Positions 7,436 to 33,021 of a DNA stretch of 33,021 nucleotides are shown piece by piece. Below the pieces are notes generated by a model that saw only the letters and a program-made list of their open reading frames with translations, was not told the origin of the DNA and ran no database searches. The stretch is from a virus. A program made the position numbers and the translations under genes. Where the stretch lies: positions 1 through 33,021 of IMG/VR virus record IMGVR_UViG_3300030098_007219; one strand, given 5' to 3'. Numbering within the stretch: the first letter of the stretch is position 1; each line of letters opens with the position of its first letter.

Positions 7436-7831
7436 CTAATAATCATTAGAAAATGGAAAATGATCTAATGTCTCTCCCCCTGGGGCGACTTCTATCCAAT
7501 CGGGAATCACATCAAAAGGAGAGGGTTTGCCCTCGAGGGATTCGGGAATTTCGCTTCTTTCTTGAAAAGAATAAAATATACATCGAGGATCATTCTTTTC
7601 TAAAGGAGGATAAGGAAGTCCCGCTTCTTTTGCCCATTTTAGAGCCATCCCCCGAAGATAAGCCGCGGTAAGTCCGAAATAAGTTTCTAACTTAACCCAC
7701 GAGCTTTCCTTCATAAAATGATAGGTCCAATAAACCCTTTCATTTTTTCCCATAGGCGTTTTCCGGCGACCCTTGAAGTTCCAGATATGATCTTTTTTTC
7801 GGCTTCTTTTTCTGGGTTTAGGCCAGCACAT
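7436..7831 (-). CDS. Small basic protein of unknown function, possible HTH
   Basis: I do not recognise this 131-residue protein. The first 30 residues are rich in Arg and Lys (RKRSRKKD, KGRRKTP), and a central stretch around 45-75 could be a helix-turn-helix, so nucleic acid binding is plausible. The frame is open up to 7885, but I choose the ATG at 7831. It has AGGAG about 8 bases upstream and avoids a 53-base overlap with the methylase gene. It sits between a Dam-like methylase and RusA, suggesting a role in replication or recombination. Confidence 0.65.
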   Translation of the reverse strand: MCWPKPRKRSRKKDHIWNFKGRRKTPMGKNERVYWTYHFMKESSWVKLETYFGLTAAYLRGMALKWAKEAGLPYPPLEKNDPRCIFYSFQERSEIPESLEGKPSPFDVIPDWIEVAPGGETLDHFPFSNDY

Positions 7832-7832
7832 T

Positions 7833-8327
7833 TTAAACACTCCTATGTTTAGGTTGAAGAAAACTACTAATCGCGGGAGGTCCATTTTCTAAACCTCTAA
7901 AAATAACCAAACAACTTGGGGCGGGTGCTGGGTTCGGAAGCTGATCTCCTCCTAAAGAAAACTTTATCCGTGCTTTAATAAAACGAATTTCGGAAGCTTT
8001 CATTATAAAATCGTGAAACCATCGGGTGTCTGTTCTCGCAAAAACTAAAAGAACGATTGTTTTATTTTTTCGGGATTCTTCATAGGCTTTTTTAACAAAT
8101 TTACCCACATCCTTTCCATAGGGGGGATTACAAAATATAGACCCCCCCTCCCACTCAACCTTTAGAGCGTCTTCTTCTGGCGAGATATAATTTGAACATA
8201 ATTTGTTCCCAGAATGGGCGGCAGCGTCTAAATCAAAATTAAATTCTTCGTTTAATTCGTTAAAGAGCCACGAAGGAGTCCTCCAAGTTTGATCATTAGA
8301 GGAAAATAAAGCACCCTTAAAACTCAT
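7833..8327 (-). CDS. Phage N6-adenine DNA methyltransferase (Dam-like)
   Basis: A 164-residue protein of the phage N-6-adenine methyltransferase family (the pfam05869 type). It shows WRTPSWLFNELNEEF, FDLDAAA (31-37, SAM region) and the catalytic NPPY (67-70). This compact form is found in many siphophages and methylates adenine, in several characterised members within GATC, though specificity is not readable here. Its start overlaps the stop of the Cys-rich gene by one base (TAATG), and its own stop lies one base before the next start. The family has no separate recognition domain, which fits the short length. Confidence 0.92.
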   Translation of the reverse strand: MSFKGALFSSNDQTWRTPSWLFNELNEEFNFDLDAAAHSGNKLCSNYISPEEDALKVEWEGGSIFCNPPYGKDVGKFVKKAYEESRKNKTIVLLVFARTDTRWFHDFIMKASEIRFIKARIKFSLGGDQLPNPAPAPSCLVIFRGLENGPPAISSFLQPKHRSV

Positions 8328-8749
8328 TATTTCACCGTCCTTCTAAGTCGGGTTTTGACATTAGGAAGAGGGGGCAAAATTGGAAGAGGAATTAAAGGAA
8401 GAGCTTTAGGCGGCAAAAGTCCGAGCGCTTCACCGATAGAAATCATTCTATTAAAATATTGAGACTCTCTTTTCATCCTCATTAATCGGGAGCGCCTCAT
8501 AAGATCAGAAATTTGATCTGGTTTTTCTGCCTCTTCTTTGAGGGCTTGAATTATTTCTACGTGCTTATCGGAAACCTTGATCCAGTCTCTAACTACCTCG
8601 TCAAGTTTCCCAAAGTTTTTAGAATATAAATCTCCTTTGGAACAAGTACACCGACAGAGACCATAAATAAAAGTTAGTCCCGATTGGCTTAAGGTTGAGA
8701 CCCCTACAAGTCCTTCATTTCCGCATAAAAAACAATGCTGCTTATCCAT
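8327..8749 (-). CDS. Cys-rich protein, putative zinc-binding, replication cluster
   Basis: A 140-residue protein. The N-terminus has CFLC (6-9) followed about 23 residues later by CRCTC, the spacing of a zinc-ribbon. The middle is a charged helix, and the C-terminus is a Pro/Leu-rich tail ending in basic residues. It overlaps the upstream putative helicase loader by 8 bases, so translation is coupled. AGGATCA is present upstream, further from the ATG than usual. Its place next to the initiator and loader suggests a replication accessory role, but the family is not recognised. Confidence 0.7.
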   Translation of the reverse strand: MDKQHCFLCGNEGLVGVSTLSQSGLTFIYGLCRCTCSKGDLYSKNFGKLDEVVRDWIKVSDKHVEIIQALKEEAEKPDQISDLMRRSRLMRMKRESQYFNRMISIGEALGLLPPKALPLIPLPILPPLPNVKTRLRRTVK

Positions 8750-9350
8750 TGGTTGTGATCCTTTTGTGATTTTGTGTTTCTAATTGAGTTTGATTTGAAT
8801 TATCGGCTGTCGCCGCGGCCGTCTTAATAAAGCTTCTTTCAAGGGCGCCCATCTCAAAAGATCCATTTTCTATCCCTTGAATTCTTTTAAATTGCCTCCA
8901 GCCGCCCACACTTTCTAAAGCTTCAGAAATAGGAGCCGGTAGCCCTTGGGGATAATGTCGGGCTATCGCCTCCTTCCACTCGTTTTCCTGCTGTCTTCTC
9001 GAATACTCGGACCCGTAATATCCAGGGAGAGAATTTATTAATCTTCTAATCTTTTGAAATTCTGCATTTACATTTATTCTTTTAATGTTCTTAGATTTCC
9101 AAATTTCTAAAAGCTGTCCAGGCTTGGGGAAAAAAGGAGAATCTCCCGCGACCCATAAATCCACCGCTTCTAAAAATTGAATCGCTGTAAATCTAAATTT
9201 TAAAGCTCTAACATAATTTCCAACGACCCAATCAAACCGATTATCGGGAAGAGGGAATTTAAAATTGCATCCAATTAGATAAACAAATCCTTGAGTTACA
9301 ATTTCATTGTTTAAAGGGGAGTCTTCATTTAATTTTGAATTAATGTCCAT
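8742..9350 (-). CDS. Putative helicase loader (lambda P-like position)
   Basis: A 202-residue protein directly downstream of the replication initiator, overlapping it by 22 bases, as in lambda O-P type gene pairs. The N-terminal half includes FFPKPGQLLEIWKS, a pattern resembling loader proteins that dock on host replicative helicase. The C-terminal half has GGWRQFKRI and a late FIKT segment, and the last 20 residues are polar. CCAGGATCA lies three bases before the ATG. The function is inferred mainly from order and weak resemblance. Confidence 0.6.
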   Translation of the reverse strand: MDINSKLNEDSPLNNEIVTQGFVYLIGCNFKFPLPDNRFDWVVGNYVRALKFRFTAIQFLEAVDLWVAGDSPFFPKPGQLLEIWKSKNIKRINVNAEFQKIRRLINSLPGYYGSEYSRRQQENEWKEAIARHYPQGLPAPISEALESVGGWRQFKRIQGIENGSFEMGALERSFIKTAAATADNSNQTQLETQNHKRITTNG

Positions 9351-10216
9351 GTTTGATCCTGGTTTGTTTCTTGGTTTTGATTACGATATCTGTTTTCTAA
9401 CATATCTAACACGCCCCCACCTGATCCGCTTATAGAGGGTGCCGAGCTTTTAGGTTGAGGAGTTGAAGCCATGATCCAATAGTCTTCAAGCTTGTTTTTT
9501 AAAAGGGTGTCGATTTGACTCCAGTTAGTTCTAAGCCAAACCGCTTTAAAATGTGAGGAGTTTTTAACCCAGTCTGCATAACGACCCCAGTTTTCTAAGC
9601 CGTCTACATGCTTTAAAGCCGCTCCTATAGTTTTTTTTCTTTTAGCGCTTAATTTCCTCCGATTACCTAAACCGTCATAATCTTTAATTACGCTCCAAGC
9701 CGTTAAGATTTCTTCTTCTGTAAATCCCCCATATGTTTTAGGGATCTTTAACTGATCTTTAACTGATCTCTTATTTTGTTCCGCTACGTGTTCCGCCTCC
9801 TGTTCCTCTATGTGTTCCGCTATGTGTTTTGTTTTCTCTGTAGAATTGCTATCTATCAAATTTGAGCTATTACGCCCCGTGTTTCGGTCGGTGTTTCGAC
9901 GGCTGTCTCCCTCGGTGTCCCTCTCTAATCCGGGTTCTCTTAAATGGATTTGTTGAGGATTAATTCTATCTCCAGGAATTATTTTAAATTCCTCTGGACC
10001 CATGATCTTTTTTAAAGTCTTCAGGGTTCGAGCTACAGAAGCGACCGAGCACTTCCAGCGCTTAGATAAATAGCGATGGGAAGCAGGAAAAGAATCCCAT
10101 CTATTAAAATTCCCCATCCTATAAAGATCCACCGCGCGACCTAAAATCGACATATCGAGATCAGAATTTAAGATAGGTTGCGGAAACTTCACATATAGAA
10201 TAATATCATATCCCAT
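9329..10216 (-). CDS. Replication initiator (lambda O-like), origin embedded
   Basis: A 295-residue protein. The N-terminal ~90 residues look like a winged-helix DNA-binding domain (HRYLSKRWKCSVASVARTLKTLKK). A low-complexity hinge follows (about 95-150), with four-residue repeats such as RNTD-RNTG and IEEQ-EAEH-VAEQ. The C-terminal domain (160-255) contains WGRYADWVKNSSHFK and ends in a Ser/Gly/Gln-rich tail. Initiator and replisome organiser proteins carry an N-terminal origin-binding domain and a C-terminal helicase-recruiting domain. The hinge-coding DNA carries two arrays of 12-bp repeats, as in lambda O. The ATG lies 8 bases after AGGATCA-A and overlaps an ATG-TAA minigene. Confidence 0.82.
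   Translation of the reverse strand: MGYDIILYVKFPQPILNSDLDMSILGRAVDLYRMGNFNRWDSFPASHRYLSKRWKCSVASVARTLKTLKKIMGPEEFKIIPGDRINPQQIHLREPGLERDTEGDSRRNTDRNTGRNSSNLIDSNSTEKTKHIAEHIEEQEAEHVAEQNKRSVKDQLKIPKTYGGFTEEEILTAWSVIKDYDGLGNRRKLSAKRKKTIGAALKHVDGLENWGRYADWVKNSSHFKAVWLRTNWSQIDTLLKNKLEDYWIMASTPQPKSSAPSISGSGGGVLDMLENRYRNQNQETNQDQTWTLIQN
9777..9836. repeat. 12-bp tandem repeats (iteron array 1)
   Basis: Five consecutive 12-bp units all begin with TGTT. Units 1-4 read TGTTCCGCTACG, TGTTCCGCCTCC, TGTTCCTCTATG and TGTTCCGCTATG; the fifth is diverged. On the minus strand they encode four-residue repeats of the EAEH/VAEQ kind. Confidence 0.85.
9879..9926. repeat. 12-bp tandem repeats (iteron array 2)
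   Basis: Four consecutive 12-bp units: GTGTTTCGGTCG, GTGTTTCGACGG, CTGTCTCCCTCG and GTGTCCCTCTCT. They differ from array 1 but keep its period. The GACGGCTGTC word at 9898-9907 spans the boundary between units 2 and 3. Confidence 0.75.
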
Positions 10217-10286: not shown

Positions 10287-10616
10287 TCATTTAAGAGAAT
10301 AGGCCAACTTTAAAACCTTTAATTTTGCCTCTAATCCCTCAAAATCTTTCAACCCATTAAGGTTAGGGGTTCTAAGCTGAAAGATTCCAAACTTTTCTAA
10401 ATCGGATGCTTCTAACCATTCTAAAATTGATGGAATCAAAATTAGAGGCATTGAATTATCCCCTGTAATCCATCGCGAAATAGTAGATCTATCAAAAGCC
10501 TTCCCGCGACTCGATCTAAATCCTAAATCTTCAAGCTTTCTCATTAAATCTCCTGAAGAACGACCCTTAGAAGCTAAAAGAGCTTGAAGCGCTTCCCCGA
10601 ATTCTTTATTTCCCAT
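10287..10616 (-). CDS. HTH transcriptional regulator (putative repressor)
   Basis: A 109-residue protein, first gene of the leftward convoy and directly facing the rightward early promoter. An XRE-like helix-turn-helix covers roughly residues 5-60: an ALLASKG helix, then a turn and a recognition helix in DRSTISRWITGDNSMP. The C-terminal part is short, without a protease or large dimerisation domain, so it is smaller than a CI repressor. I choose the ATG at 10616 rather than the TTG at 10622, because AGGATTGAAA ends right before it. Its position in the divergent control region makes it the prime candidate to bind the operator-like dyads at the plus-strand promoters. That is inference. Confidence 0.75.
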   Translation of the reverse strand: MGNKEFGEALQALLASKGRSSGDLMRKLEDLGFRSSRGKAFDRSTISRWITGDNSMPLILIPSILEWLEASDLEKFGIFQLRTPNLNGLKDFEGLEAKLKVLKLAYSLK

Positions 10617-10757
10617 TTTCAATCCTGTTAATAAATGTGTTGATTCACTCTCATATAATAACAGATTAAATGTAAAGCGGAAGTAAAGACTCTTTTATCT
10701 TTCCCGAACAGAGGAAGAAGGGAGCCCCAACTTTCTTAACTTTCTTCAAATAAACCC
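10617..10757. promoter_or_regulatory. Divergent control region, leftward promoter expected here
   Basis: About 140 bp of gene-free, AT-rich DNA separate the regulator from the first rightward promoter. On the minus strand, CTTTACATTTAATC (10677-10664) resembles the -35 and spacer start of rightward promoter 1 (CTTTACTTTTAATC). TATTATAT follows, but not at good spacing, so the leftward start site cannot be fixed. Confidence 0.45.
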
Positions 10758-10833
10758 TTTACTTTTAATCAATAGGTGACTATATTACATTTAGAAATTG
10801 AGAGAAACACTTCTAAACAACAGGATCAAAAAA
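10758..10833 (+). promoter_or_regulatory. Early promoter 1 with conserved leader
   Basis: The -35 box is TTTACT (10758-10763), followed by a 17-bp spacer and -10 TATATT (10781-10786). A dyad TTTAGAA/TTCTAAA (10790-10796 and 10811-10817) spans the likely start point, and AGGATCA (10822-10828) leads to the ATG at 10834. The spacer and leader match promoters 2-4 almost exactly. Here only the right arm TCAATAGG (10769-10776) of the -35 dyad is kept. Confidence 0.85.
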
Positions 10834-11145
10834 ATGAGCTTTTATCAAAAACAAGAAATTATCCAAAACCTTATTGAATCTAACGGCGGAAAGCATGAAA
10901 GAGCACACGCTTTAGTCTTAGATAGATTGGTTAGATCTTTAGGTGATGATTTTGATTGTTTCCAACAAGAAATCATGAATACGGAATCTTCTATAGAGGA
11001 TTACGAAGAGTCCTTAGATATTCTTTTAGACTTCTTTGGAGGAGAAGATAACCGAGCCGTTGAAAGAATTACTGACGAAATCCTTCTTCGTTCTTCTAAT
11101 AGGCAATTTCAGAACTTTTTATCATTTTTCAAAAACTCTAACTAA
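10834..11145 (+). CDS. Early protein of unknown function, module 1
   Basis: First rightward gene after the divergent control region, 103 residues. The frame is open from 10798, but the ATG at 10834 is chosen because it follows the shared AGGATCA at normal spacing and the earlier ATG overlaps the promoter leader. The protein appears all-helical and acidic in the middle (SIEDYEESLDILLDFFGGEDN), with no recognised motif. As the most promoter-proximal gene it is probably made immediately after infection. A host-takeover or anti-defence role is possible, but nothing in the sequence proves it. Confidence 0.75.
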   Translation: MSFYQKQEIIQNLIESNGGKHERAHALVLDRLVRSLGDDFDCFQQEIMNTESSIEDYEESLDILLDFFGGEDNRAVERITDEILLRSSNRQFQNFLSFFKNSN

Positions 11146-11156
11146 TAGGATCACCC

Positions 11157-11390
11157 ATGATTAATAAAGCTACAAATCATAAAGCAAGTAAAGCCGCTTA
11201 TAAAGTATGGATAGAGAAGGACGAAGAGTTCGGAGAATGGGTCGTCTATTCTGTTCATGTTCTTAATGGAATGAAGGAGTCCCGATATTTCTCCGATAAA
11301 CGACAAGCTATTGTCTATCAAAAGGATTTAGAAGGATGGACTTTAGACCACTTGGATCCATATTGGATTGAAAAAAACTTTCCCTCCTAA
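11157..11390 (+). CDS. Small early protein of unknown function, module 1
   Basis: A 77-residue protein starting 11 bases after the previous stop, behind AATAGGATCACCC. It is rich in Trp, Tyr and charged residues (YKVWIEKDEEFGEWVVYSVH). The pattern suggests a small beta-sheet domain of 2-3 strands followed by a helix (DKRQAIVYQKDLEGW). I recognise no family. A GC-rich hairpin follows the stop. Confidence 0.7.
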   Translation: MINKATNHKASKAAYKVWIEKDEEFGEWVVYSVHVLNGMKESRYFSDKRQAIVYQKDLEGWTLDHLDPYWIEKNFPS

Positions 11391-11396
11391 CTTATT

Positions 11397-11424
11397 GGGC
11401 GGCCGTCTTTATCGGCTGTCGCCC
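11397..11424 (+). other. Intergenic leader hairpin, type B copy 1
   Basis: GGGCG-GCCG (11397-11405) pairs with CGGC (11413-11416) and CGCCC (11420-11424), with a 7-base loop and a TGT bulge. It stands between a stop codon and the next AGGATCA. An almost identical copy is at 15369-15396 and half-copies precede the genes at 12692 and 14530. It may be an RNA processing or protein-binding site. Confidence 0.6.
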
Positions 11425-11452
11425 ATCAAAAAAAATCAAATCAGGATCAAAC

Positions 11453-11719
11453 ATGGAATCAAAGTTCTTTATCTTCGTAACCCGAGCCCCTTCTAAATCT
11501 TCCGTTCGCCGCTGGGTCTTTAATATCTACTTTCCTAAACATAAATTCTCTTTTGAAGTTCCCGCTTCCTCGGAGGGGGTGAGAATCGATTTATTTAATA
11601 AAGACCAGATAATCCGCGAGGTTTCCAAAGAATGCGCGGAAAATGCCCTTACTCAACTTCTGCATAAGTGGAGAGGATTGCTTAACGAAGAAGAAAAAAG
11701 AGCTTTATATTTAGTTTAA
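11453..11719 (+). CDS. Small early protein of unknown function, module 1
   Basis: An 88-residue protein after the type B hairpin leader and ATCAGGATCAAAC. The N-terminal half is basic and looks beta-stranded (FFIFVTRAPSKSSVRRWVFNIYF). The C-terminal half is helical and acidic (NKDQIIREVSKECAENALTQLL). I do not recognise it. Spacing to the next gene is 27 bases. Confidence 0.7.
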   Translation: MESKFFIFVTRAPSKSSVRRWVFNIYFPKHKFSFEVPASSEGVRIDLFNKDQIIREVSKECAENALTQLLHKWRGLLNEEEKRALYLV

Positions 11720-11746
11720 AAACCCATCAATAAAACAGGATCAAAA

Positions 11747-12241
11747 ATGGACAAATTTATTTTAGTGAAAAACTTAGAAGCGCTTCCTTCATTTATGGCT
11801 CCCTTAGAATTGGATAAGGGGGATTCACATCTTTATAAAAAGATTATCTCTACATTTTCTTCATTAGAAGAAGCTTCAATCGCTCAATTAAACCACTCCA
11901 TAAACGGGATAAAAACCGAAATCTATCCTATAGATCGGCAAACTCGAAGAATGCTTTCCCTCTGGGGTAGTGTCGCTTACGGTTGGGATATTTTCGATGG
12001 GAAAGTCGAACTCCTTCGGGACAGGTTCGAGACATTAAGCCAGTTCTTAGATTTTTATCTAAAAGAGTTGGGGGAAGATCTCTTCTGGAAATGGATAAAA
12101 GAATATCTTCATAACGGAACCTCTTCAGAAACGATGGGGTGGATCAATACTTTAGAAGAAGAAAAAAGAGGAGATTTATTATCTTTTCTCCTCATTTTAA
12201 ACGGAACGAGCCGTCAAGAATGGGGCTCTACCGAGCTTTAA
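11747..12241 (+). CDS. Early protein of unknown function, last gene of module 1
   Basis: A 164-residue, mostly helical protein preceded by AACAGGATCAAAA. Trp residues are clustered in the second half (FWKWIKEYL, MGWINTLEEE), and the C-terminus ends in QEWGSTEL. No catalytic motif or membrane segment is visible. The next promoter begins about 30 bases after its stop, so it closes module 1. Confidence 0.72.
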   Translation: MDKFILVKNLEALPSFMAPLELDKGDSHLYKKIISTFSSLEEASIAQLNHSINGIKTEIYPIDRQTRRMLSLWGSVAYGWDIFDGKVELLRDRFETLSQFLDFYLKELGEDLFWKWIKEYLHNGTSSETMGWINTLEEEKRGDLLSFLLILNGTSRQEWGSTEL

Positions 12242-12265
12242 CTTTCTTCACTTTCTGCCTTTTTC

Positions 12266-12343
12266 CCTATTGACCTTTAATCAATAGGTGACTATATTAC
12301 ATTTAGAAATTGAGAGAAACACTTCTAAACAACAGGATCAAAA
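12266..12343 (+). promoter_or_regulatory. Early promoter 2 with 23-bp dyad operator and leader
   Basis: -35 TTGACC (12270-12275), 17-bp spacer, -10 TATATT (12293-12298). A perfect dyad, CCTATTGA (12266-12273) and TCAATAGG (12281-12288), covers the -35 box and half the spacer, as expected of a repressor operator. The downstream TTTAGAA/TTCTAAA dyad (12302-12329) and AGGATCA repeat as in the other copies. Confidence 0.87.
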
Positions 12344-12658
12344 ATGGCTAAAACTTCAACTCTTCAACTTCTTGATCGTCATATTAAATGGAAAATTGAA
12401 GGATATGGGCATTGCCCGATCGATGAAATAGCCCTCTGTTTAACTCAAACCCCCAGTCTATTAGAAGAGCTTGAAAACACATCTCGTTTATTTACTCTAT
12501 TGAAGGATAGAGAAATGAAACCCCTAAAACTTCTTATCCGACGAAGAATTAACTCCTTAGAAAAAGCAGGAATCTTAACCCGAGTCGTGAAAGGATGGAG
12601 CCTTAATCGGAATGGATATGTTCTTAATTGGAGACTAACCGAAGATAGCCGATATTAA
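12344..12658 (+). CDS. Winged-helix-like early protein, paralogue A
   Basis: A 104-residue protein that opens module 2 and starts MAKTS, as other module-head genes begin MAK. It has an N-terminal helix (LLDRHIKWKIEG), a CPIDEIALCL helix, then LIRRRINSLEKAGILTRV and a short hydrophobic hairpin. This fits a small winged helix with a LEKAGIL recognition segment. The pattern LIR-x7-LxxxGxL recurs in the genes at 13632 and, less exactly, 15632, so I regard the three as paralogues. DNA binding, perhaps to the repeated promoters, is inferred. Confidence 0.72.
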   Translation: MAKTSTLQLLDRHIKWKIEGYGHCPIDEIALCLTQTPSLLEELENTSRLFTLLKDREMKPLKLLIRRRINSLEKAGILTRVVKGWSLNRNGYVLNWRLTEDSRY

Positions 12659-12691
12659 TCGGCTGTCGCCCATCAATAAAAGGAGTCAAAA

Positions 12692-12910
12692 ATGCCCAAC
12701 GAAGAATTAAGAAATCTTAGAAAAATTTTAGAGCATCAACTATCCCAAAAGAGAAAAGAATTAAATTCCGCTTTTGAAGATTATTCCCAGAAAAGCCGGA
12801 CCCCAGGAGTGGTTTTATCTAATTCAGCTTCTCGGGATCATTGGATTAAAATTAAAGGGGAATACGAAGGTTTATCTTCTGCTTTAGAAAGTCTTTATTC
12901 TATCTTATGA
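12692..12910 (+). CDS. Small helical early protein, possible coiled coil
   Basis: A 72-residue protein in module 2. The first 40 residues form a charged amphipathic helix (NLRKILEHQLSQKRKELNSAF) and a second helix ends the protein (GLSSALESLYSIL), suggesting a helical hairpin or dimer. Its leader contains a half type B element (CGGCTGTCGCCCATC). The ribosome binding site is AGGAGTCA, a variant of the AGGATCA used by its neighbours. A hairpin follows the stop. Function unknown. Confidence 0.68.
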   Translation: MPNEELRNLRKILEHQLSQKRKELNSAFEDYSQKSRTPGVVLSNSASRDHWIKIKGEYEGLSSALESLYSIL

Positions 12911-12919
12911 AACTTAACC

Positions 12920-12944
12920 GGCTCCAGCCGTCGAAGCTGGGGCC
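12920..12944 (+). other. Intergenic GC-rich hairpin
   Basis: GGCTCCAGC (12920-12928) pairs with GCTGGGGCC (12936-12944), nine pairs including one G-T wobble, with loop CGTCGAA. No T-run follows, so it is more likely a processing or stability element than an intrinsic terminator. Confidence 0.55.
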
Positions 12945-12964
12945 CCTAAATTACAGGATCAAAA

Positions 12965-13408
12965 ATGGAACGAAATTATAAATGGAATCAACCCGAAGAA
13001 GCATCTTTAACGATGGCCGAATTAATGATCTTATGTGAACTTCAAAGAAGAGGAAGTTTAGGAGCTTCTTGTGAAGATTTAGAAGATTCAATCCGATGGT
13101 TAAGTTTTAGCGGAAGAATAGAAGAAACGGTCGGAGGATGGGAATCTATAGGTGGATGGGGGTTTGAAGTTCAAAAGCTTTATATGTCTTTAGAGGAAAG
13201 AGGATGGGCGACAACCGCTAAAGAGCATTATCGACCCATGATTTCTAATCCCGAAACCCAGCGGGCATATTTTGCTCAACTTGAATTTTTAAAGAAACAT
13301 TATTCCAATAGGGAGCGATTTTTTATATCAGAACTGGGGCGGCTCGTTTTGTTTAAGCAATTGGAACGTTTAGGAGAAATTGAAGAAATGATGGGAGAAG
13401 AGACATGA
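12965..13408 (+). CDS. Early protein of unknown function, possible winged helix
   Basis: A 147-residue protein in module 2 preceded by TTACAGGATCAAAA. Residues 15-90 alternate helices and Gly/Trp-rich turns (TMAELMILCELQRRG, VQKLYMSLEERGWATT) in a way that could form a winged helix. The C-terminal half is helical and basic, ending in an acidic tail. I recognise no family. Its TGA overlaps the ATG of the next small gene (ATGA), so the two are translationally coupled. Confidence 0.7.
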   Translation: MERNYKWNQPEEASLTMAELMILCELQRRGSLGASCEDLEDSIRWLSFSGRIEETVGGWESIGGWGFEVQKLYMSLEERGWATTAKEHYRPMISNPETQRAYFAQLEFLKKHYSNRERFFISELGRLVLFKQLERLGEIEEMMGEET

Positions 13409-13506
13409 AAGATATTCCTCTTTTAACGAGCCTCTTATTAAGTCTGATCTTTACGGTATACGTTTTAATCCTTCAAGCTTTAGAAGTTGGCTTCTTTTGG
13501 GGCTAA
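13405..13506 (+). CDS. 33-residue single-pass membrane peptide
   Basis: A short frame coupled to the preceding gene through an ATGA overlap. After MKDIP comes a stretch of about 20 hydrophobic residues (LLTSLLLSLIFTVYVLILQA), then a short tail ending FFWG. It looks like a single transmembrane helix. It ends about 50 bases before the promoter 3 dyad, closing module 2. A small phage membrane peptide could act on the cell envelope or membrane-bound defences, but that is speculation. Confidence 0.55.
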   Translation: MKDIPLLTSLLLSLIFTVYVLILQALEVGFFWG

Positions 13507-13553
13507 ATCTGGGGCTCCAACTTTCTTAACTTTTTTCACTTTCTGCCTTTTCC

Positions 13554-13631
13554 CCTATTGACCTTTAATCAATAGGTGACTATATTACATATAGAAATTG
13601 AGAGAAACACTTCTAAACAACAGGATCAAAA
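13554..13631 (+). promoter_or_regulatory. Early promoter 3 with 23-bp dyad operator and leader
   Basis: -35 TTGACC (13558-13563), 17-bp spacer, -10 TATATT (13581-13586). The dyad CCTATTGA/TCAATAGG (13554-13561 and 13569-13576) is perfect, as in promoter 2. The upstream pyrimidine-rich CAACTTTCTTAAC tract is also shared. In the leader dyad one base differs (ATAGAA for TTAGAA). Confidence 0.87.
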
Positions 13632-13988
13632 ATGGCTAAAACAACTAAAGTAGAAAGAGCAGAATTAGACCTTAGAGTCTTAAAAGCCGTCCGTGAATTA
13701 GATAACGAGTCCACCGGTTGGCACGGTGGATCTATAGGGGCAATTATTGCCCTCTTAGAAGTTAAACATATTCCCGTCCAATCGGAATCGATGGAACAAG
13801 CGCTTTTTGAGCATTCAATCAATATGAATAAAAAGCTTCATATCCTGATTAGAGGAAGCGTTAGGAGACTGTTAAAAACAGGACTTATTTATGAATTTTA
13901 TGGAATCGGCTTTAACGGCCGTGAATGTAAATACTATGGAGACGGGATAGAGCATCAAGCGCGGTATGATCAGTTCTGGAACTCCTAA
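13632..13988 (+). CDS. Winged-helix-like early protein, paralogue B
   Basis: A 118-residue protein heading module 3, starting MAKTT and preceded by CAACAGGATCAAAA. Its order of elements matches the gene at 12344: an N-terminal helix (LRVLKAVREL), a middle helix (GGSIGAIIALLEV), then LIRGSVRRLLKTGLIYEF and a beta-rich tail. The tail is longer here and contains GFNGRECKYYGDGIEHQ. A small DNA-binding protein is likely. Both promoter and gene head are shared with module 2, pointing to module duplication. Confidence 0.72.
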   Translation: MAKTTKVERAELDLRVLKAVRELDNESTGWHGGSIGAIIALLEVKHIPVQSESMEQALFEHSINMNKKLHILIRGSVRRLLKTGLIYEFYGIGFNGRECKYYGDGIEHQARYDQFWNS

Positions 13989-13996
13989 TTATTAAA

Positions 13997-14012
13997 AGGG
14001 GCTTTTGCCCCT
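13997..14012 (+). other. Intergenic hairpin
   Basis: AGGGGC (13997-14002) and GCCCCT (14007-14012) flank a TTTT loop. Only AAACTTTC follows, so it is a poor intrinsic terminator. It may stabilise or help process the module 3 transcript. Confidence 0.5.
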
Positions 14013-14041
14013 AAACTTTCAACCTTAAACAGGATCAAATA

Positions 14042-14476
14042 ATGTTTAATTATTCATTTACACAAGAAGAAATCGCTCCATTCAAGGACCTCGACCTCGA
14101 ATCTAAAATCTACATAGGGAACTACCTTCCCGCCGGAAACCGTCATTTCTCGCTTCAACTCGTCCATAAAATGAAATGGAAAGCGGAAGGAATAATAATC
14201 TCTTCAACCGCGACAAAATCATTAAAAACCGCCCCCCTGTTCGCTGGTTATCCTTCTTTAATATTCGGATTTTTTCCGAATGAAGCTTCCTATAATGGAA
14301 GCACCGAATTTAACTGGGCGCGCGGAAAGACCGCTTCAATTGCCGCTTTTGAAGGGTTAATCACTTGGGAACAAGCAGAAAAAATTAATAAACTGCTTTT
14401 AGCGGCGACTAAAATTAGTCGGAAAGAAATGAAAGCTTTTAATATACGCGAACGGTTTATAAAATCCGATCATTAG
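14042..14476 (+). CDS. Early protein of unknown function, module 3
   Basis: A 144-residue protein after AACAGGATCAAATA. The centre appears beta-rich (WKAEGIIISSTATKS, PSLIFGFFPNE) and the C-terminal third is helical (WEQAEKINKLLLAATKI). No motif is recognised. Its last six residues, FIKSDH, and their 21-bp coding DNA are identical to the end of the next gene. Confidence 0.7.
   Translation: MFNYSFTQEEIAPFKDLDLESKIYIGNYLPAGNRHFSLQLVHKMKWKAEGIIISSTATKSLKTAPLFAGYPSLIFGFFPNEASYNGSTEFNWARGKTASIAAFEGLITWEQAEKINKLLLAATKISRKEMKAFNIRERFIKSDH
14454..14474 (+). repeat. 21-bp direct repeat, copy 1 (gene 3' end)
   Basis: These 21 bases, running from GGTTTATAAA to CGATCATT, recur exactly at 14741-14761. 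Both copies form the 3' end of a gene, immediately before the last base(s) of the stop codon. Confidence 0.9.
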
Positions 14477-14529
14477 ATATTGAGAGACAGCCGTCGACCA
14501 TCAATAAAACATCAAATCAGGATCAAAAA

Positions 14530-14763
14530 ATGATTAGAGGCACTTCCTATTTCCCTACTTTAGCGGATGCGATTTCTTATTATCACGTTTCTAAAATACC
14601 TAAAGAGCAGGTTCTTTATAAAATTGAAACTAAAGAAATCTTTATCGGTGTTCCCCCTCTAAAAAAAGGAGAGCGACTTCTTTTAAGAAGTGAATATCCT
14701 AAACACCCGATTTCGAAACGATGGAAAGTTCCTTATCGTTGGTTTATAAAATCCGATCATTGA
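14530..14763 (+). CDS. Small early protein of unknown function, module 3
   Basis: A 77-residue protein behind a partial type B leader (GACAGCCGTC at 14486) and ATCAGGATCAAAAA. It is basic, with short beta-like stretches (VLYKIETKEIFIGV) and a basic loop (LKKGERLLLRSEYPKHPISKRWK). It ends in FIKSDH like the gene before it, so one of the two 3' ends was probably acquired by recombination. Function unknown. Confidence 0.68.
   Translation: MIRGTSYFPTLADAISYYHVSKIPKEQVLYKIETKEIFIGVPPLKKGERLLLRSEYPKHPISKRWKVPYRWFIKSDH
14741..14761 (+). repeat. 21-bp direct repeat, copy 2 (gene 3' end)
   Basis: Exact copy of 14454-14474, ending in the stop codon of the 77-residue gene (TGA here, TAG in copy 1). 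Confidence 0.9.
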
Positions 14764-14770
14764 TCCAAAA

Positions 14771-14787
14771 GCCCCATAATCTGGGGC
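14771..14787 (+). terminator. Possible terminator of module 3
   Basis: GCCCC (14771-14775) pairs with GGGGC (14783-14787) around ATAATCT. A pyrimidine-rich tract with a run of six T follows some 20 bases later, which is far for an intrinsic terminator. It lies between the last gene of module 3 and promoter 4. Confidence 0.4.
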
Positions 14788-14825
14788 CCCAACTTTCTTA
14801 ACTTTTTTCACTTTCTGCCTTTTTC

Positions 14826-14903
14826 ACTATTGACCTTTAATCAATAGGTGACTATATTACAGTTAGAAATTGAGAGAAACACTTCTAAACAACAGGATCA
14901 AAA
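14826..14903 (+). promoter_or_regulatory. Early promoter 4 with dyad operator and leader
   Basis: -35 TTGACC (14830-14835), 17-bp spacer, -10 TATATT (14853-14858). The dyad keeps seven of eight pairs, with an outer mismatch (ACTATTGA at 14826-14833 against TCAATAGG at 14841-14848). The leader starts GTTAGAA instead of TTTAGAA. AGGATCA precedes the ATG at 14904. Confidence 0.86.
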
Positions 14904-15362
14904 ATGGCTAAACCTAAATTAAATATTCCGAATCTTCCTAAAAGCTTATGGGATATGAGTGAAGAAGAGCTTCAAGCATGGAAAAGCTATTTAGCTTCTT
15001 CTCCTTGGGATTCTTTCGCCCAGAAATTATGGAGCGATATTTTCACCGTTCAAACTCATAATAGAAAAGATGCTCAATGGATTATATTTGATAATCATAA
15101 TCCTAATAATCCTCTTTCTTTTGGTTCCTCTAAAGAAGAAGCTTTAGAAAATTTAAACTCTATGGATCCCGAGTGGGATTTTATCTTTAGAAGCGCTCTA
15201 AAGACCGAAGAAGAGGAAGAGAAAAATTATTTAGGGGAGTTACACGTAGTAGAAGAAAAATGGAATCTATATACTACAGAAGCGGAATTTATTTGTCTAT
15301 CCCGTGAAGAGTGGGAAAAAGACAGAAACTCCTTCGTCCCTCATTATCACCCTAATATTTAA
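14904..15362 (+). CDS. Acidic early protein of unknown function, head of module 4
   Basis: A 152-residue protein starting MAKPK, so it shares the module-head start codon context with the genes at 12344 and 13632 but not their winged-helix pattern. It is strongly acidic (EEEEEKNYLGE) and rich in Trp. The segment WIIFDNHNPNNPLSFGSSKEEALENL looks like a small beta-alpha unit. Acidic early phage proteins are often inhibitors or DNA mimics, but no family is recognised. Confidence 0.7.
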   Translation: MAKPKLNIPNLPKSLWDMSEEELQAWKSYLASSPWDSFAQKLWSDIFTVQTHNRKDAQWIIFDNHNPNNPLSFGSSKEEALENLNSMDPEWDFIFRSALKTEEEEEKNYLGELHVVEEKWNLYTTEAEFICLSREEWEKDRNSFVPHYHPNI

Positions 15363-15368
15363 TCTTCT

Positions 15369-15396
15369 GGGCGGCCGTCTTCATCGGCTGTCGCCC
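15369..15396 (+). other. Intergenic leader hairpin, type B copy 2
   Basis: The same GGGCG-GCCG / CGGC-TGT-CGCCC hairpin as at 11397-11424, differing in a single loop base (TCTTCAT for TCTTTAT). It is followed by CATCAAATCAGGATCA and a start codon. Confidence 0.6.
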
Positions 15397-15426
15397 ATCA
15401 ACAAAACATCAAATCAGGATCAAAAA

Positions 15427-15657
15427 ATGGCTATTTCAACACCGCGATTAATCATTGGTTTTCGTATCGAAAACGGAATCGAAAAAGAGAAAATGTACAT
15501 AAACACTCTTCAACTTTCTTTTATCTCTCCATTGAAAGAAGAAGGATTCTATAAAATTGTAGTAGTAGGATATCCAACCTCTTTAGTAATTAAAGACTGG
15601 GGGGAGAGCATTAAAGATTATCTCGAGATTTTTGGTAGAACAGACTTTGATTATTGA
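15427..15657 (+). CDS. Small early protein of unknown function, module 4
   Basis: A 76-residue protein. The frame is open from 15304, but the ATG at 15427 follows ATCAGGATCAAAAA and avoids overlap with the previous gene and the hairpin leader. It appears mainly beta-stranded (RLIIGFRIENG, FYKIVVVGYPTSLVI) with an acidic C-terminus. It overlaps the next frame by 26 bases. Confidence 0.7.
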   Translation: MAISTPRLIIGFRIENGIEKEKMYINTLQLSFISPLKEEGFYKIVVVGYPTSLVIKDWGESIKDYLEIFGRTDFDY

Positions 15658-15961
15658 AAAATATACCTGGGATCAACGATTGTTAGTCCTTGAAATTGAA
15701 GACGCATGGATAGAGCGCTCGCGAGATGAAGCGTTATCGCCTCTACAAATAGCAAAAAGGTTAGATTTAGAGCATCTATATTCGGCGGCAGTTGATGAAG
15801 GACGCCTGCATAAAGCGGCGGAAGAAGCGATAAAAAACAATCGTTTCGGCTCTTTATCTCGTTTAATTCGGGAACGCCTGCCCATTCTTCTTGAAGAAAG
15901 AATTCTTTTAGAAGTTAAAAAGGGATCATTTACCCGAACCAAAATTAATTCAAGTTGCTAA
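15632..15961 (+). CDS. Winged-helix-like early protein, paralogue C
   Basis: A protein of up to 109 residues. No ATG is available: the frame starts at a TTG (15632) or a second TTG at 15647. It is the only gene in the early convoy, apart from the ATGA-coupled ones, without an AGGATCA-type site, so it is probably reached by coupling through the 26-base overlap. The order of elements resembles paralogues A and B: an N-terminal helix (RLLVLEIEDAWIE), a middle segment (LSPLQIAKRL), then RLIRERLPILLEERILLEV and a basic tail. It may be a diverged third copy. Confidence 0.62.
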   Translation: MVEQTLIIEKYTWDQRLLVLEIEDAWIERSRDEALSPLQIAKRLDLEHLYSAAVDEGRLHKAAEEAIKNNRFGSLSRLIRERLPILLEERILLEVKKGSFTRTKINSSC

Positions 15962-15979
15962 ATCAAACAGGATCAAAAA

Positions 15980-16528
15980 ATGGATATAAAAGATATTCAA
16001 AGAAAATTAGTTAAGATGTTATCCCACCCTGGGGAAGGATACGAAATTCCAGAACAGGGGAGAGAATTATTCGAATCTTTAGGATTATCATTCTTTCAGG
16101 GTGTCAACTTTCCCAAATTGTTTAGTACAGATATTTCATGGGAATATTTAAAAACAGGAATAGCCCCTCCTAACGGAATTCCAGATAAGGATTTAGGATG
16201 GTGGTTAGACTCCGAAGGATATATGGGTCTTCACTTTTATTGGACCAATCTCTCTTACGCGAACTTAGAAGGATGTTCCTTTTCATTCCCGAGATGGGAA
16301 TCTATGAGAAAAGGAACCACCAACTCATATTTTGATCATGTCTCTTTTTTTCAAGCCAATTTAAAAGATGCTGACTTTAGGGGTGCTTGGCTTAATCATG
16401 TCTGTTTTAAAGATGCGAACTTGGAAGGGGCAAACTTTACAGGTGCGATGATGGAAAACTGTAATTTCAATAACGCCAAGGGGATCCCTATTGGGTGGAC
16501 TTCCCCTTTTGGGAAGAACTTCTTATGA
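15980..16528 (+). CDS. Pentapeptide-repeat protein
   Basis: A 182-residue protein with an N-terminal ~85-residue region of unknown nature. Pentapeptide repeats (A(N/D)LxG-type) follow in two blocks: LSYANLEGCSF near residue 90 and FFQANLKDADFRGAWL through CFKDANLEGANFTGAMMENCNF at about 120-170. Such repeats fold into a square beta-helix; some family members mimic DNA and bind gyrase, others have no known role. AACAGGATCAAAAA precedes the ATG. Its stop overlaps the methyltransferase start (ATGA), so the two are made in step. Confidence 0.82.
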   Translation: MDIKDIQRKLVKMLSHPGEGYEIPEQGRELFESLGLSFFQGVNFPKLFSTDISWEYLKTGIAPPNGIPDKDLGWWLDSEGYMGLHFYWTNLSYANLEGCSFSFPRWESMRKGTTNSYFDHVSFFQANLKDADFRGAWLNHVCFKDANLEGANFTGAMMENCNFNNAKGIPIGWTSPFGKNFL

Positions 16529-17394
16529 TTAAAATCGGAAGCGTTTTTTCGGGGATAGGCGGTTTTGAAATAGGAATAGAAGCGGCTTTAAATTCGGAAA
16601 ACATTAAAACTAAAGTTTGTTTTCAAATAGAAAAAGATCTCTATTGCCGGCAGGTATTACAAAAGCACTGGCCCGACTCTTCTATTTTTTCAGAAATTCA
16701 AAACGTTAAAATTGAAGAGTTAGAAGCTGTAGATCTTTTAATGGGTGGATTTCCTTGTCAGGACATCTCCGCCGCCGGAAAAGGAGAAGGATTAAATGGA
16801 TCAAGATCAGGATTATTTTATGAATTGCTCCGAATTATTCGCGAGTTGGAGCCCCCAGTCGTCCTGCTGGAAAACGTCCCAGCGATCTATTTTCGGGGAT
16901 TGGGAGACGTTTTCGGGGAGTTGGCCTCTTCAGGGTATGATATCCGATGGAAAAGCTTATCGGCTTCCGAGGTGGGATTCCCCCACCTTAGAAAAAGATG
17001 GTTCGCTCTGGCCTACTCCCACAAAAGGATTCGGACAGAACTTTCCGATTCCTCAACTTCACCCAACCCGATTCCGAAAAATAATCCCCAGCGGTCTTCA
17101 TGGGGTCAACCTATCGGAAGCCGTCCAATGCTATCACGGAAAAGGACAACTAAACCCGCAATGGGTAGAAGCATTAATGGGATTTCCCATCGGCTGGACC
17201 GAAGTCCCGCCTATAGAGGAGAAGATCAGTTTAAATGGGAGCCCCGAAGAATCTCCTTAAAACGAAGGAAAAACGAATCTAAAAGAATTCATTTATTAGG
17301 GAATTCTATTGTTCCTCTTCAAGCCGCTATGGCTTTTAAGCAATTGGGACTAATTGAAGTAATTCAATCTTTAAAAACTGATCTAACTCTTTGA
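16525..17394 (+). CDS. DNA cytosine-C5 methyltransferase
   Basis: A 289-residue enzyme that methylates cytosine C5 using SAM. Motif I is VFSGIGGFEIG, motif IV GGFPCQDIS with catalytic Cys78, motif VI LLENV, motif VIII FPHLRKRWF, and motif X HLLGNSIVPLQAAMAF. The target recognition region between VIII and IX is short, as in many phage enzymes, and its site cannot be read. I choose the ATG at 16525, which overlaps the upstream stop, rather than the in-frame ATG at 16495. The 3' end overlaps a convergent minus-strand gene by 31 bases. Codons about 90-245 also encode a second protein in the +1 frame. It may shield phage DNA from host restriction. Confidence 0.93.
   Translation: MIKIGSVFSGIGGFEIGIEAALNSENIKTKVCFQIEKDLYCRQVLQKHWPDSSIFSEIQNVKIEELEAVDLLMGGFPCQDISAAGKGEGLNGSRSGLFYELLRIIRELEPPVVLLENVPAIYFRGLGDVFGELASSGYDIRWKSLSASEVGFPHLRKRWFALAYSHKRIRTELSDSSTSPNPIPKNNPQRSSWGQPIGSRPMLSRKRTTKPAMGRSINGISHRLDRSPAYRGEDQFKWEPRRISLKRRKNESKRIHLLGNSIVPLQAAMAFKQLGLIEVIQSLKTDLTL
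16796..17260 (+). CDS. Overprinted protein in the +1 frame of the methyltransferase
   Basis: A 154-codon frame lying entirely inside the methyltransferase gene. AAGGAGAAGGATTAA directly precedes its ATG, close to the phage's AGGATCA style. It reads WKTSQRSIFGDWETFSGSWP, GMISDGKAYRLP, LWPTPT and LNPQWVEALMGFPIGWTEV. I recall the same ordered motifs from phage database proteins labelled hypothetical or methyltransferase. Generic C5-methyltransferase codons from motif VI to IX, read in +1, yield the same motifs, so the frame may be a conserved overprint. It has no known activity. The other reading is a by-product of the enzyme's codons that is never translated. Confidence 0.6.
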   Translation: MDQDQDYFMNCSELFASWSPQSSCWKTSQRSIFGDWETFSGSWPLQGMISDGKAYRLPRWDSPTLEKDGSLWPTPTKGFGQNFPIPQLHPTRFRKIIPSGLHGVNLSEAVQCYHGKGQLNPQWVEALMGFPIGWTEVPPIEEKISLNGSPEESP

Positions 17395-17732
17395 ATTAAT
17401 TTAAATTGCCTTTTTTTCGGTCTATCTTCTCTAACCTCTAAAACCCAGAGAGTAATTTCTACTAGTCCGATTAAAAGACGGTCCCTTCTTTCTTCATTCA
17501 TTTCCTCCCACCCTAAAGCGCCCGGTAAATAAACGGGATCGTCTAATTCTTCGTCGATCCAATCCCCAATCGCTTCTACTACTGCTCTTCTTTTATCTTC
17601 TCCTTTTGCTTCTTCAATTTCTCGAAGTTGTTTAATTAGGGCTACAATATGAGATAAAATTTCGCTTAGAAGTTCGACTTCTTCTACGCTTAACCATTTT
17701 TTTAAAAGAAGATATAGAAGCTCGATTTTCAT
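17364..17732 (-). CDS. Unknown helical protein at the end of the lysis cluster
   Basis: A 122-residue protein, last gene of the leftward convoy, two bases downstream of the endolysin stop. It is all-helical, with a hydrophobic N-terminus (LLYLLLKKWLSVEEVELLSEIL), an acidic middle, a GALGWEEM segment, a second hydrophobic helix (LLIGLVEITLWVLEV) and a basic tail. There is no clear signal peptide or lipobox, so it is not an obvious spanin. Its place suggests a lysis or late function, but I cannot name one. Its 3' end overlaps the converging methyltransferase gene by 31 bases. Confidence 0.65.
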   Translation of the reverse strand: MKIELLYLLLKKWLSVEEVELLSEILSHIVALIKQLREIEEAKGEDKRRAVVEAIGDWIDEELDDPVYLPGALGWEEMNEERRDRLLIGLVEITLWVLEVREDRPKKRQFKLIQRVRSVFKD

Positions 17733-32439: not shown

Positions 32440-33021
32440 TTATCCTCGTTTTAAGCCTAAAGTTTGAGCACGTTTATAAACAGAATACGCGGCGGGATGG
32501 GATTCTTCAAAATCAGTTTCCGATTTTCCAGCCTCGAACCATTGAGCCATTTTTTCTGAAGCTGCCCCAAATTCGTTAACGGTTGGGGCTCCTTCTGAAG
32601 AATAGGTAGGGCTCGCTTCCCCTGTAATACCTAAACTTTTAGTCAGGGCTTCAAATTTTCCAGCCTCATACAAAAGGGCATCCGCAACCGCCGGATCCTG
32701 ATTATAGAGTTTTAGGAAAATATCTTTTTTCGATGGAAGAATTTGATGTGATTGAAGGGCAACCTCAAAAGCCCGCTCCGCTTTCATGGTTTTTAATTCA
32801 GCTTGAAAAGCTTGTAATTCTTCAAATTGGGAGCGCTCTAAAATAACCTGATCGGTATTTACTGAAGCTTCTAAAGATGATGCTTCCATTTTAGGCTCGG
32901 CCATTTTCTTTAGATGCTTTAAAATATCTAATACAGACCATTCAGGGGAAAGTCCTAAAACTTCTCTTAGTTTCCGAAGTTCGATCACTTCATCTTTAGA
33001 AGCGTGTCCTTCTTCTTTCGC
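32440..33021 (-). CDS. Prohead protease/scaffold, C-terminal part (gene continues at position 680 down to 1)
   Basis: The right-edge part of the same 374-residue gene, including the 137-bp overlap. Read through 33021-32885, it repeats the end of the linker and then adds the scaffold section: a Glu/Lys-rich helix (LEASVNTDQVILERSQFEELQAF), AERAFEVALQSHQILPSKKDIFLKLY, and a flexible Ser/Gly segment ending in AAYSVYKRAQTLGLKRG. There is no independent start; the ATG at 32988 is internal to the whole gene. Mu gpI likewise carries its scaffold at the C-terminus. Confidence 0.9.
   Translation of the reverse strand, partial: AKEEGHASKDEVIELRKLREVLGLSPEWSVLDILKHLKKMAEPKMEASSLEASVNTDQVILERSQFEELQAFQAELKTMKAERAFEVALQSHQILPSKKDIFLKLYNQDPAVADALLYEAGKFEALTKSLGITGEASPTYSSEGAPTVNEFGAASEKMAQWFEAGKSETDFEESHPAAYSVYKRAQTLGLKRG
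32885..33021. repeat. Right copy of the contig-end overlap
   Basis: Matches 1-137 at 134 of 137 positions; it differs at 32896 (C for T), 32899 (G for C) and 32944 (A for G). Reading across it joins the two parts of the protease gene without a gap. Confidence 0.93.

Follow-up and report, generated by a model that had tools for sequence, protein, structure and literature searches.

The window analysed here, 33,021 nucleotides (positions 1 to 33,021 of IMG/VR record IMGVR_UViG_3300030098_007219), belongs to an uncultured tailed phage, siphophage-like, whose genome is about 32.9 kb long. The sole run of plus-strand genes in this phage is a block of four modules, and a conserved small regulator is encoded divergently to it. 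Four near-identical regulatory stretches (P1 to P4) lie in the block, and each heads a short set of mutually unrelated small genes (Table 1).

Table 1. Coordinates of the features in and next to the four-module block
Feature	Position	Strand	Details
Small HTH, XRE-like regulator	10287..10616	-	109 aa from ATG 10616; divergent from P1
P1 upstream tract	10721..10757	+	Partial homology to the tracts of P2-P4; the alignment contains an indel
P1	10758..10833	+	-35 TTTACT 10758, 17-nt spacer, -10 TATATT 10781, leader; ATG 10834
Module 1	10834..12241	+	Genes 10834-11145, 11157-11390, 11453-11719, 11747-12241; without confident family
Second linker	11397..11452	+	Hairpin GGGCGGCCGTCTTTATCGGCTGTCGCCC (-18 kcal/mol), then TCAGGATCAAAC-ATG
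P2 upstream tract	12218..12269	+	Terminator-like hairpin 12221-12240 and pyrimidine-rich tract
P2	12270..12352	+	-35 TTGACC 12270, -10 TATATT 12293, invariant leader, ATG GCT AAA
Start-motif example	12333..12346	+	CAGGATCAAAAATG; similar copies ahead of most block genes
Module 2	12344..13506	+	Genes 12344-12658, 12692-12910, 12965-13408, 13405-13506 (33 aa)
Second linker, partial copy	12653..12691	+	AGCCGATATTAATCGGCTGTCGCCCATCAA
P3 upstream tract	13506..13557	+	Terminator-like hairpin 13497-13520
P3	13558..13640	+	-35 TTGACC 13558, -10 TATATT 13581, invariant leader, ATG GCT AAA
Module 3	13632..14763	+	Genes 13632-13988, 14042-14476, 14530-14763
Second linker, partial copy	14485..14529	+	93% identity over 43 nt with the copy at 15387
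P4 upstream tract	14778..14829	+	Preceded by hairpin GCCCCATAATCTGGGGC
P4	14830..14912	+	-35 TTGACC 14830, -10 TATATT 14853, invariant leader, ATG GCT AAA
Module 4, first genes	14904..15961	+	14904-15362, 15427-15657, 15632-15961 (start uncertain)
Second linker, full copy	15369..15426	+	
Module 4, pentapeptide-repeat protein	15980-16528	+	PF00805, E 2e-14
Module 4, C5 DNA methyltransferase	16525-17394	+	PF00145, E 8e-41; module spans 14904..17394

The regulatory stretches are four copies of a block of about 135 nt, starting at 10706, 12218, 13506 and 14778, and no further full copy was found elsewhere in the record. Relative to the copy at 13506, identity is 96% for that at 14778, 97% over 115 nt for the second (12238-12352) and 83% for the first (10721-10832). 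All four contain a sigma70-like promoter with a -35 hexamer, a 17-nt spacer and a TATATT -10 box. A sequence-only reading of this DNA had started the promoters at 10758, 12270, 13558 and 14830, and the -35 hexamers are found exactly there. The conservation it had described from the -35 box to the ATG was confirmed, spacer, -10 box and leader being free of substitutions in P1 to P4, and so was the sharing of upstream tracts among promoters 2 to 4, which reaches back to roughly -100 in P2 and roughly -120 in P3 and P4. The core AATAGGTGACTATATT occurs four times, while shuffled sequences gave 0.42 occurrences on average (≤3 mismatches) and none reached four. Promoter-like matches across the region show no excess over chance (13 versus 15.9 expected), so that it is position and conservation that carry the promoter call, and not the consensus score by itself; three of the four P1-P4 promoters are the top-scoring matches. 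Terminator-like hairpins lie upstream of P2 and P3, and such matches occur region-wide at chance level.

Among P2 to P4, no site varies in the 29 nt from -35 to -10 or in the 40-nt leader, and 2 of 5 sites vary just before the predicted +1. Within the coding start, codons 1-3 vary at 0/9 sites and codons 4-20 at 46/51. The DNA identity thus extends into the first three codons and then ends, which explains why the genes heading modules 2 to 4 begin with MAK: the earlier reading was correct in noting this, and the common residues are encoded where the DNA repeat ends (ATGGCTAAA) and do not indicate common protein ancestry. P1, whose -35 hexamer differs from that of P2-P4, matches P2 at all 68 positions between the end of the -35 box and the ATG, whereas its upstream tract has strongly diverged, with 29 mismatches in 44 positions when compared ungapped (Fisher p=4e-16). 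This combination favours constraint over uniform drift.

High identity could partly come from recent copying or gene conversion. In its full form, this explanation supposes that the promoters work, that the leader is under no special constraint and that identity merely reflects age; the 96% identity of P3 and P4, upstream tracts included, would fit it. However, P1 is old as judged from its upstream tract and yet retains the complete match in the block, and the identity of all four copies ends at the start-codon region, so that we consider recent duplication rather unlikely as the whole account. Several near-identical copies of about 135 nt within one genome might also suggest a small MITE-like mobile element that happens to include a promoter. 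This possibility seems very improbable, since all copies are intergenic, in the same orientation and in register with the start codon, no single block contains both arms of an inverted repeat, full copies are confined to the positions given above, and the core has no exact match in other viral or genome contigs. A riboswitch or other structured leader was also considered and rejected: Rfam gave only sub-threshold chance matches, and the hairpin of the 5' leader, at -1.5 kcal/mol, is weak and disrupted in P3, which leaves a structured leader unsupported.

The genes behind the promoters are mostly orphans, as had been claimed, the exceptions being the pentapeptide-repeat protein and the C5 DNA methyltransferase of module 4, and the description of the region as four promoter-led units of small genes is supported. 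No convincing paralogy was detected among the block products, the best blastp E value over 120 pairs being 0.058, with a shuffle test giving the same answer. The proposal that these units arose by repeated duplication is therefore supported for the promoter cassette and not supported for entire modules, given the lack of convincing paralogues. The module heads at 12344 and 13632 look alike by eye (helix-rich, then strands), and blastp and shuffles did not support them as paralogues; their AlphaFold models are of low confidence (pLDDT 51 and 47). PDB matches of the 12344 product to designed pentatricopeptide repeats were discarded as repeat-helix artefacts, no stretch passing alone. A tblastn search of three early proteins against phages gave no match. 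By analogy, the block may serve in anti-defence or takeover; a domain that would fit such a role is present only in the methyltransferase and perhaps in the pentapeptide-repeat protein.

Scans for relatives used TerL, the portal, the MCP, the replication protein and the head protein of module 3. In IMG/VR they gave a single close relative (L007, 9,960 b, TerL 76% identical) and, besides it, one remote TerL match (L008, 24%). Megablast in INPHARED found no relatives, and exact 26-mers of the promoter had 0 matches in IMG/VR and GTDB contigs. A 15-mer core was found in 88 single-copy stretches, none related to the early block or structural genes of the phage, and these were taken as chance. L007 covers only two early genes, both unrelated to the genes of the block.

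Exchange of whole modules at the cassettes is a plausible reading of the array. In its strongest form, the 135-nt repeats would be mainly sites of homologous recombination, at which modules are swapped, lost and gained in response to host defences. It agrees with this that identity stops at the ATG or no more than three codons from it, with unrelated genes downstream, that the two early genes of L007 are different ones, and that deletions between intergenic repeats are known in Cluster O mycobacteriophages (PMC4351075). On the other hand, no gain or loss of modules was seen, the scans of INPHARED and IMG/VR having found no relative that covers the block, and recombination alone leaves unexplained the invariant leader of P1 beside its diverged upstream tract. 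Exchange as the main function of the repeats seems possible but doubtful.

Within the units, genes are joined by a second type of linker, composed of a strong hairpin followed by an AGGATCA start motif; this repeat had been overlooked in the sequence-only reading. When AGGATC or AGGATT was counted within 20 nt of the start, the motif (Shine-Dalgarno sequence AGGATCAAAA) was found ahead of 12 of the 16 block genes, 6 of 10 repressor, replication and packaging genes, and 0 of 20 late genes (block versus late, p=1.5e-6). It is thus restricted to non-structural genes. In L007, the one relative, copies precede the regulator gene and both of the early genes that can be seen. The presence of the motif in the block and in non-structural genes and its absence from late genes support an early class for the block, and give the earlier designation of an early region independent support; the timing itself is what we infer from this distribution.

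The regulator resembles phage transcriptional regulators weakly (phrog_8, E 0.006), and a homologue 51% identical is found at the equivalent place in L007. It is a candidate that probably controls the switch of the block. A putative operator half-site, TTTACWTTTAATC, that the block promoters would have in common with the regulator's own promoter looked good on a designed pattern and was marginal under a fair shuffle (matched by 19/500 shuffles for P1 and 140/500 for P2), and is not claimed. A small HTH regulator that is divergently encoded and conserved in L007 could also belong to a temperate phage, in which a repressor holds off or tunes the promoters in the lysogen and the modules are morons for lysogenic conversion or superinfection exclusion. 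This seems unlikely, given that the scanned proteins included no recognisable integrase or separate partition system, that the half-site common to the promoters is not significant, and that replication genes also carry the early start motif.

Taken together, P1 to P4 are most likely a reiterated early promoter, of sigma70 type and read by the host RNA polymerase, with its leader. We consider it probable that this is an early block along which one regulatory cassette occurs in four copies and restarts transcription for each unit, probably under the HTH switch. The copied cassette comprises the end of the preceding unit, the predicted promoter, the leader of about 40 nt, the Shine-Dalgarno sequence and the start codon, and each copy would switch transcription on again for the three to five small first-wave genes behind it. 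With transcription re-started at every copy, genes far from P1 would be expressed no later and no more weakly than those at the front; because the second linker carries the same ribosome-binding motif, nearly any inserted gene would receive an identical start signal. A further proposal, which we regard as rather unlikely, is that the cassettes are standardised expression slots. The stretch between the terminator and the third codon would then act as a shared control element, its RNA leader being recognised as a unit by a factor of the phage or the host, and also as the homology for exchange, so that new anti-host genes could plug into early expression.

Comparable arrangements are known in other viruses. 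In SIRV2 and other archaeal viruses, as here, many small unrelated early genes stand behind one promoter-centred sequence that is highly conserved, unlike the genes, and a small HTH regulator is encoded nearby (PMC11065993). A conserved promoter-centred sequence before several genes, with mutually unrelated genes downstream, is present in this phage too. The SIRV2 system differs in having archaeal BRE/TATA promoters and mostly single genes, while here the promoter is bacterial and sigma70-like, has a full leader and heads polycistronic units; for SIRV2-type early genes, roles against host defences have been tested (PMC11065993), whereas in this phage we infer them by analogy. The SPO1 takeover module and kayviruses likewise have several operons of small early genes with their own host-type promoters, those of kayviruses being TTGACW-17-TATANT (PMC6873191, PMC7698491). 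In the passages describing them, those promoters share consensus boxes, with no mention of a copied unit of 70-135 nt up to the start codon such as this phage has, and the phages differ from the present one in type and size (PMC6873191, PMC7698491).

The start-associated sequence (SAS) of Cluster K mycobacteriophages resembles the motif described here in being short and in lying just 5' of the start codons of many unrelated genes (PMC3203893). The SAS is conserved across related phages, and some copies have an extended upstream element (ESAS) (PMC3203893); the motif here was seen in one relative, L007. However, the SAS consists of GGGATAGGAGCCC with 17-bp imperfect inverted repeats, while here the Shine-Dalgarno motif is joined to a promoter and a 40-nt leader (PMC3203893). 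The Cluster K motif with its inverted repeats was not found in this phage and there is no sequence relation; the AGGATCA system works like the SAS and is not a member of it. Cluster O phages also have an array of small genes with 17-bp repeats in its intergenic gaps, and recombination between the repeats has been held responsible for deletions; the repeats are short dyads mostly untied to promoters or start codons, in contrast to the long promoter-leader units here (PMC4351075).

Where other viruses have a comparable arrangement, it marks early genes involved in handling the host, and in archaeal viruses reasoning of this kind led to anti-defence genes that were then tested (PMC11065993). The four copies offer a clean test of whether the leader of this phage is kept for an RNA function or as a recombination site. 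If the interpretation is true, the repeated promoter-leader would tag first-wave genes at the sequence level in a group of phages that has no characterised relatives and in which protein homology tells almost nothing.

Each of the four predicted sigma70-like promoters (P1 to P4, -10 box TATATT) lies in a copied unit of about 135 nt that also holds the leader, and no further full copy of this block is found elsewhere in the record. Four promoter-led units had been described in the sequence-only reading; that observation proved real and precise, and the four -35 positions given there were exact when checked against the sequence. The core AATAGGTGACTATATT occurs four times in the record, while in shuffled sequences the average is 0.42 even when three mismatches are permitted. 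Among P2 to P4, no site varies from -35 to -10 (0/29), in the leader (0/40) or in codons 1-3 (0/9); variable sites number 9 of 37 in the upstream tract, 2 of 5 directly before the predicted +1 and 46 of 51 in codons 4-20. P1 and P2 agree at all 68 sites that lie between the -35 box and the ATG, whereas upstream of -35 they are mismatched at 29 of 44 sites (ungapped; Fisher p=4e-16 for the contrast). Since the two variable bases sit just upstream of the predicted +1, the predicted RNA leader is invariant in all four copies. A structural role for the leader hairpin TTAGAA/TTCTAA is unsupported, its stem being weak and shortened in P3.

The copied unit takes in the end of the unit before it, the promoter and the leader, and stops at the start codon in P1 and at the third codon in P2 to P4. 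The MAK starts noted earlier for the genes heading modules 2-4 are indeed present, but they are the tail of this DNA repeat. The best of 120 pairs of block gene products reached E 0.058 in blastp, and a shuffled-alignment test gave no convincing related pair among them. Because the downstream genes are not detectably related and MAK belongs to the repeat, the proposed duplication holds for the regulatory cassette and not for the genes: as judged from the sequence, the regulatory unit has either been duplicated or stayed the same, and the genes were not duplicated alongside. Cassette exchange and an anti-defence repertoire, the other elements of the sequence-only reading, stand as hypotheses. 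Separately, an identical 21-nt stretch (GGTTTATAAAATCCGATCATT, at 14454-14474 and 14741-14761; both C-termini FIKSDH) closes 14042-14476 and 14530-14763, two adjacent genes without other relation; it may be a recombination scar.

Inside the units, several genes are joined by a second linker that the earlier reading lacked. It consists of a hairpin (GGGCGGCCGTCTTYATCGGCTGTCGCCC, about -18 kcal/mol) with CATCAA..TCAGGATCAAAAATG after it, and is tied to the start motif AGGATCA. Because no T-run lies 3' of the stem on the + strand, the hairpin more probably serves RNA stability or processing than termination.

Features of the probable early region and its borders
Feature	Position	Strand	Remark
Small HTH regulator	10287-10616	-	divergent from the + strand run
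Copies of the ~135-nt block	starts 10706, 12218, 13506, 14778	+	-35 boxes at 10758, 12270, 13558, 14830
Second linker, full copies	11397-11429, 15369-15401	+	0 expected in shuffles
Second linker, partial copies	near 12653 and 14485	+	
Pentapeptide-repeat protein	15980-16528	+	PF00805, E 2e-14
C5 DNA methyltransferase	16525-17394	+	PF00145, E 8e-41
Gene 17364-17732	17364-17732		convergent with the + strand run

The only long + strand gene run in the window is 10834-17394; every gene recognised as serving replication, packaging, structure or lysis lies on the - strand. The virus is siphophage-like by its gene set, which includes both terminase subunits (small and large), portal, major capsid protein, scaffold/decoration protein, neck protein, tape measure, tail fibre-like protein and amidase. 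Positions 1-137 recur directly at 32885-33021 (137 nt, 98% identity, 3 differences), and an interrupted protease-like reading frame runs on across this overlap; the window, the full virus record of 33,021 bases, thus probably represents a nearly complete genome of about 32.9 kb with a circular map. The three differences suggest that it was probably assembled from slightly varied strains.

AGGATC or AGGATT within 20 nt of the gene start was found for 12 of 16 genes of the block, 6 of 10 in the repressor-to-large-terminase run and none of 20 late genes (block versus late, p=1.5e-6). This distribution is the best independent support, at the sequence level, for classing the block as early. In the only close relative found in IMG/VR (L007, 9,960 b; TerL 76% identical, portal up to 82% in the best segment), the motif precedes the regulator and both early genes within reach. 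The two early proteins match no protein of the window, and the promoter core was not found in L007. The motif before unrelated genes is the sole pointer, and a hint, that gene content here may turn over while the signal stays.

Other differences from L007 were seen. The long portal (729-3539, 936 aa) has a conserved N-terminal part, and its L007 counterpart (7555-9960) carries an additional inserted stretch mid-protein. The ParB-like and DNA methyltransferase fusion at 5590-6939 matches L007 3912-5549 in its N-terminal part (72% over 130 aa); its methyltransferase half looks swapped for a different one. With Dam (7833-8327) and the C5 enzyme, this 33-kb genome holds three methyltransferase-type genes.

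Most early products have no confident family, as had been stated; the pentapeptide-repeat protein and the C5 methyltransferase, for which PADLOC returned methyltransferase models only, are exceptions. DNA methylation can shield DNA against restriction, and gyrase is the target of some pentapeptide-repeat proteins.

Most likely, host RNA polymerase would initiate at each of P1 to P4, about 7 nt past TATATT, so that four short polycistronic RNAs would share one 5' end. Such re-starts would hold output level across the 6.6-kb block, in which terminator-like hairpins precede P2 and P3, and the identical leader would equalise translation starts. The leader may be bound by a factor. The divergent regulator may act here; a 13-mer shared with its own promoter is marginal as a putative operator.

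In archaeal SIRV2, 11 of 13 early genes, differing among themselves, stand under one common regulatory sequence, and some of the anti-defence genes predicted by this rule were validated (PMC11065993); the logic is nearly that of the block studied here. The takeover regions of SPO1 (PMC6873191) and kayvirus (PMC7698491) hold several early operons under host-type promoters. Cluster K mycobacteriophages carry start-associated sequences ahead of unrelated genes (PMC3203893), and in Cluster O phages deletions have been seen between repeats in intergenic DNA (PMC4351075). The P1 to P4 arrangement works like these and by sequence is a member of none. It clearly counts as a new example of an already known type of arrangement, in a phage group having almost no known relatives.
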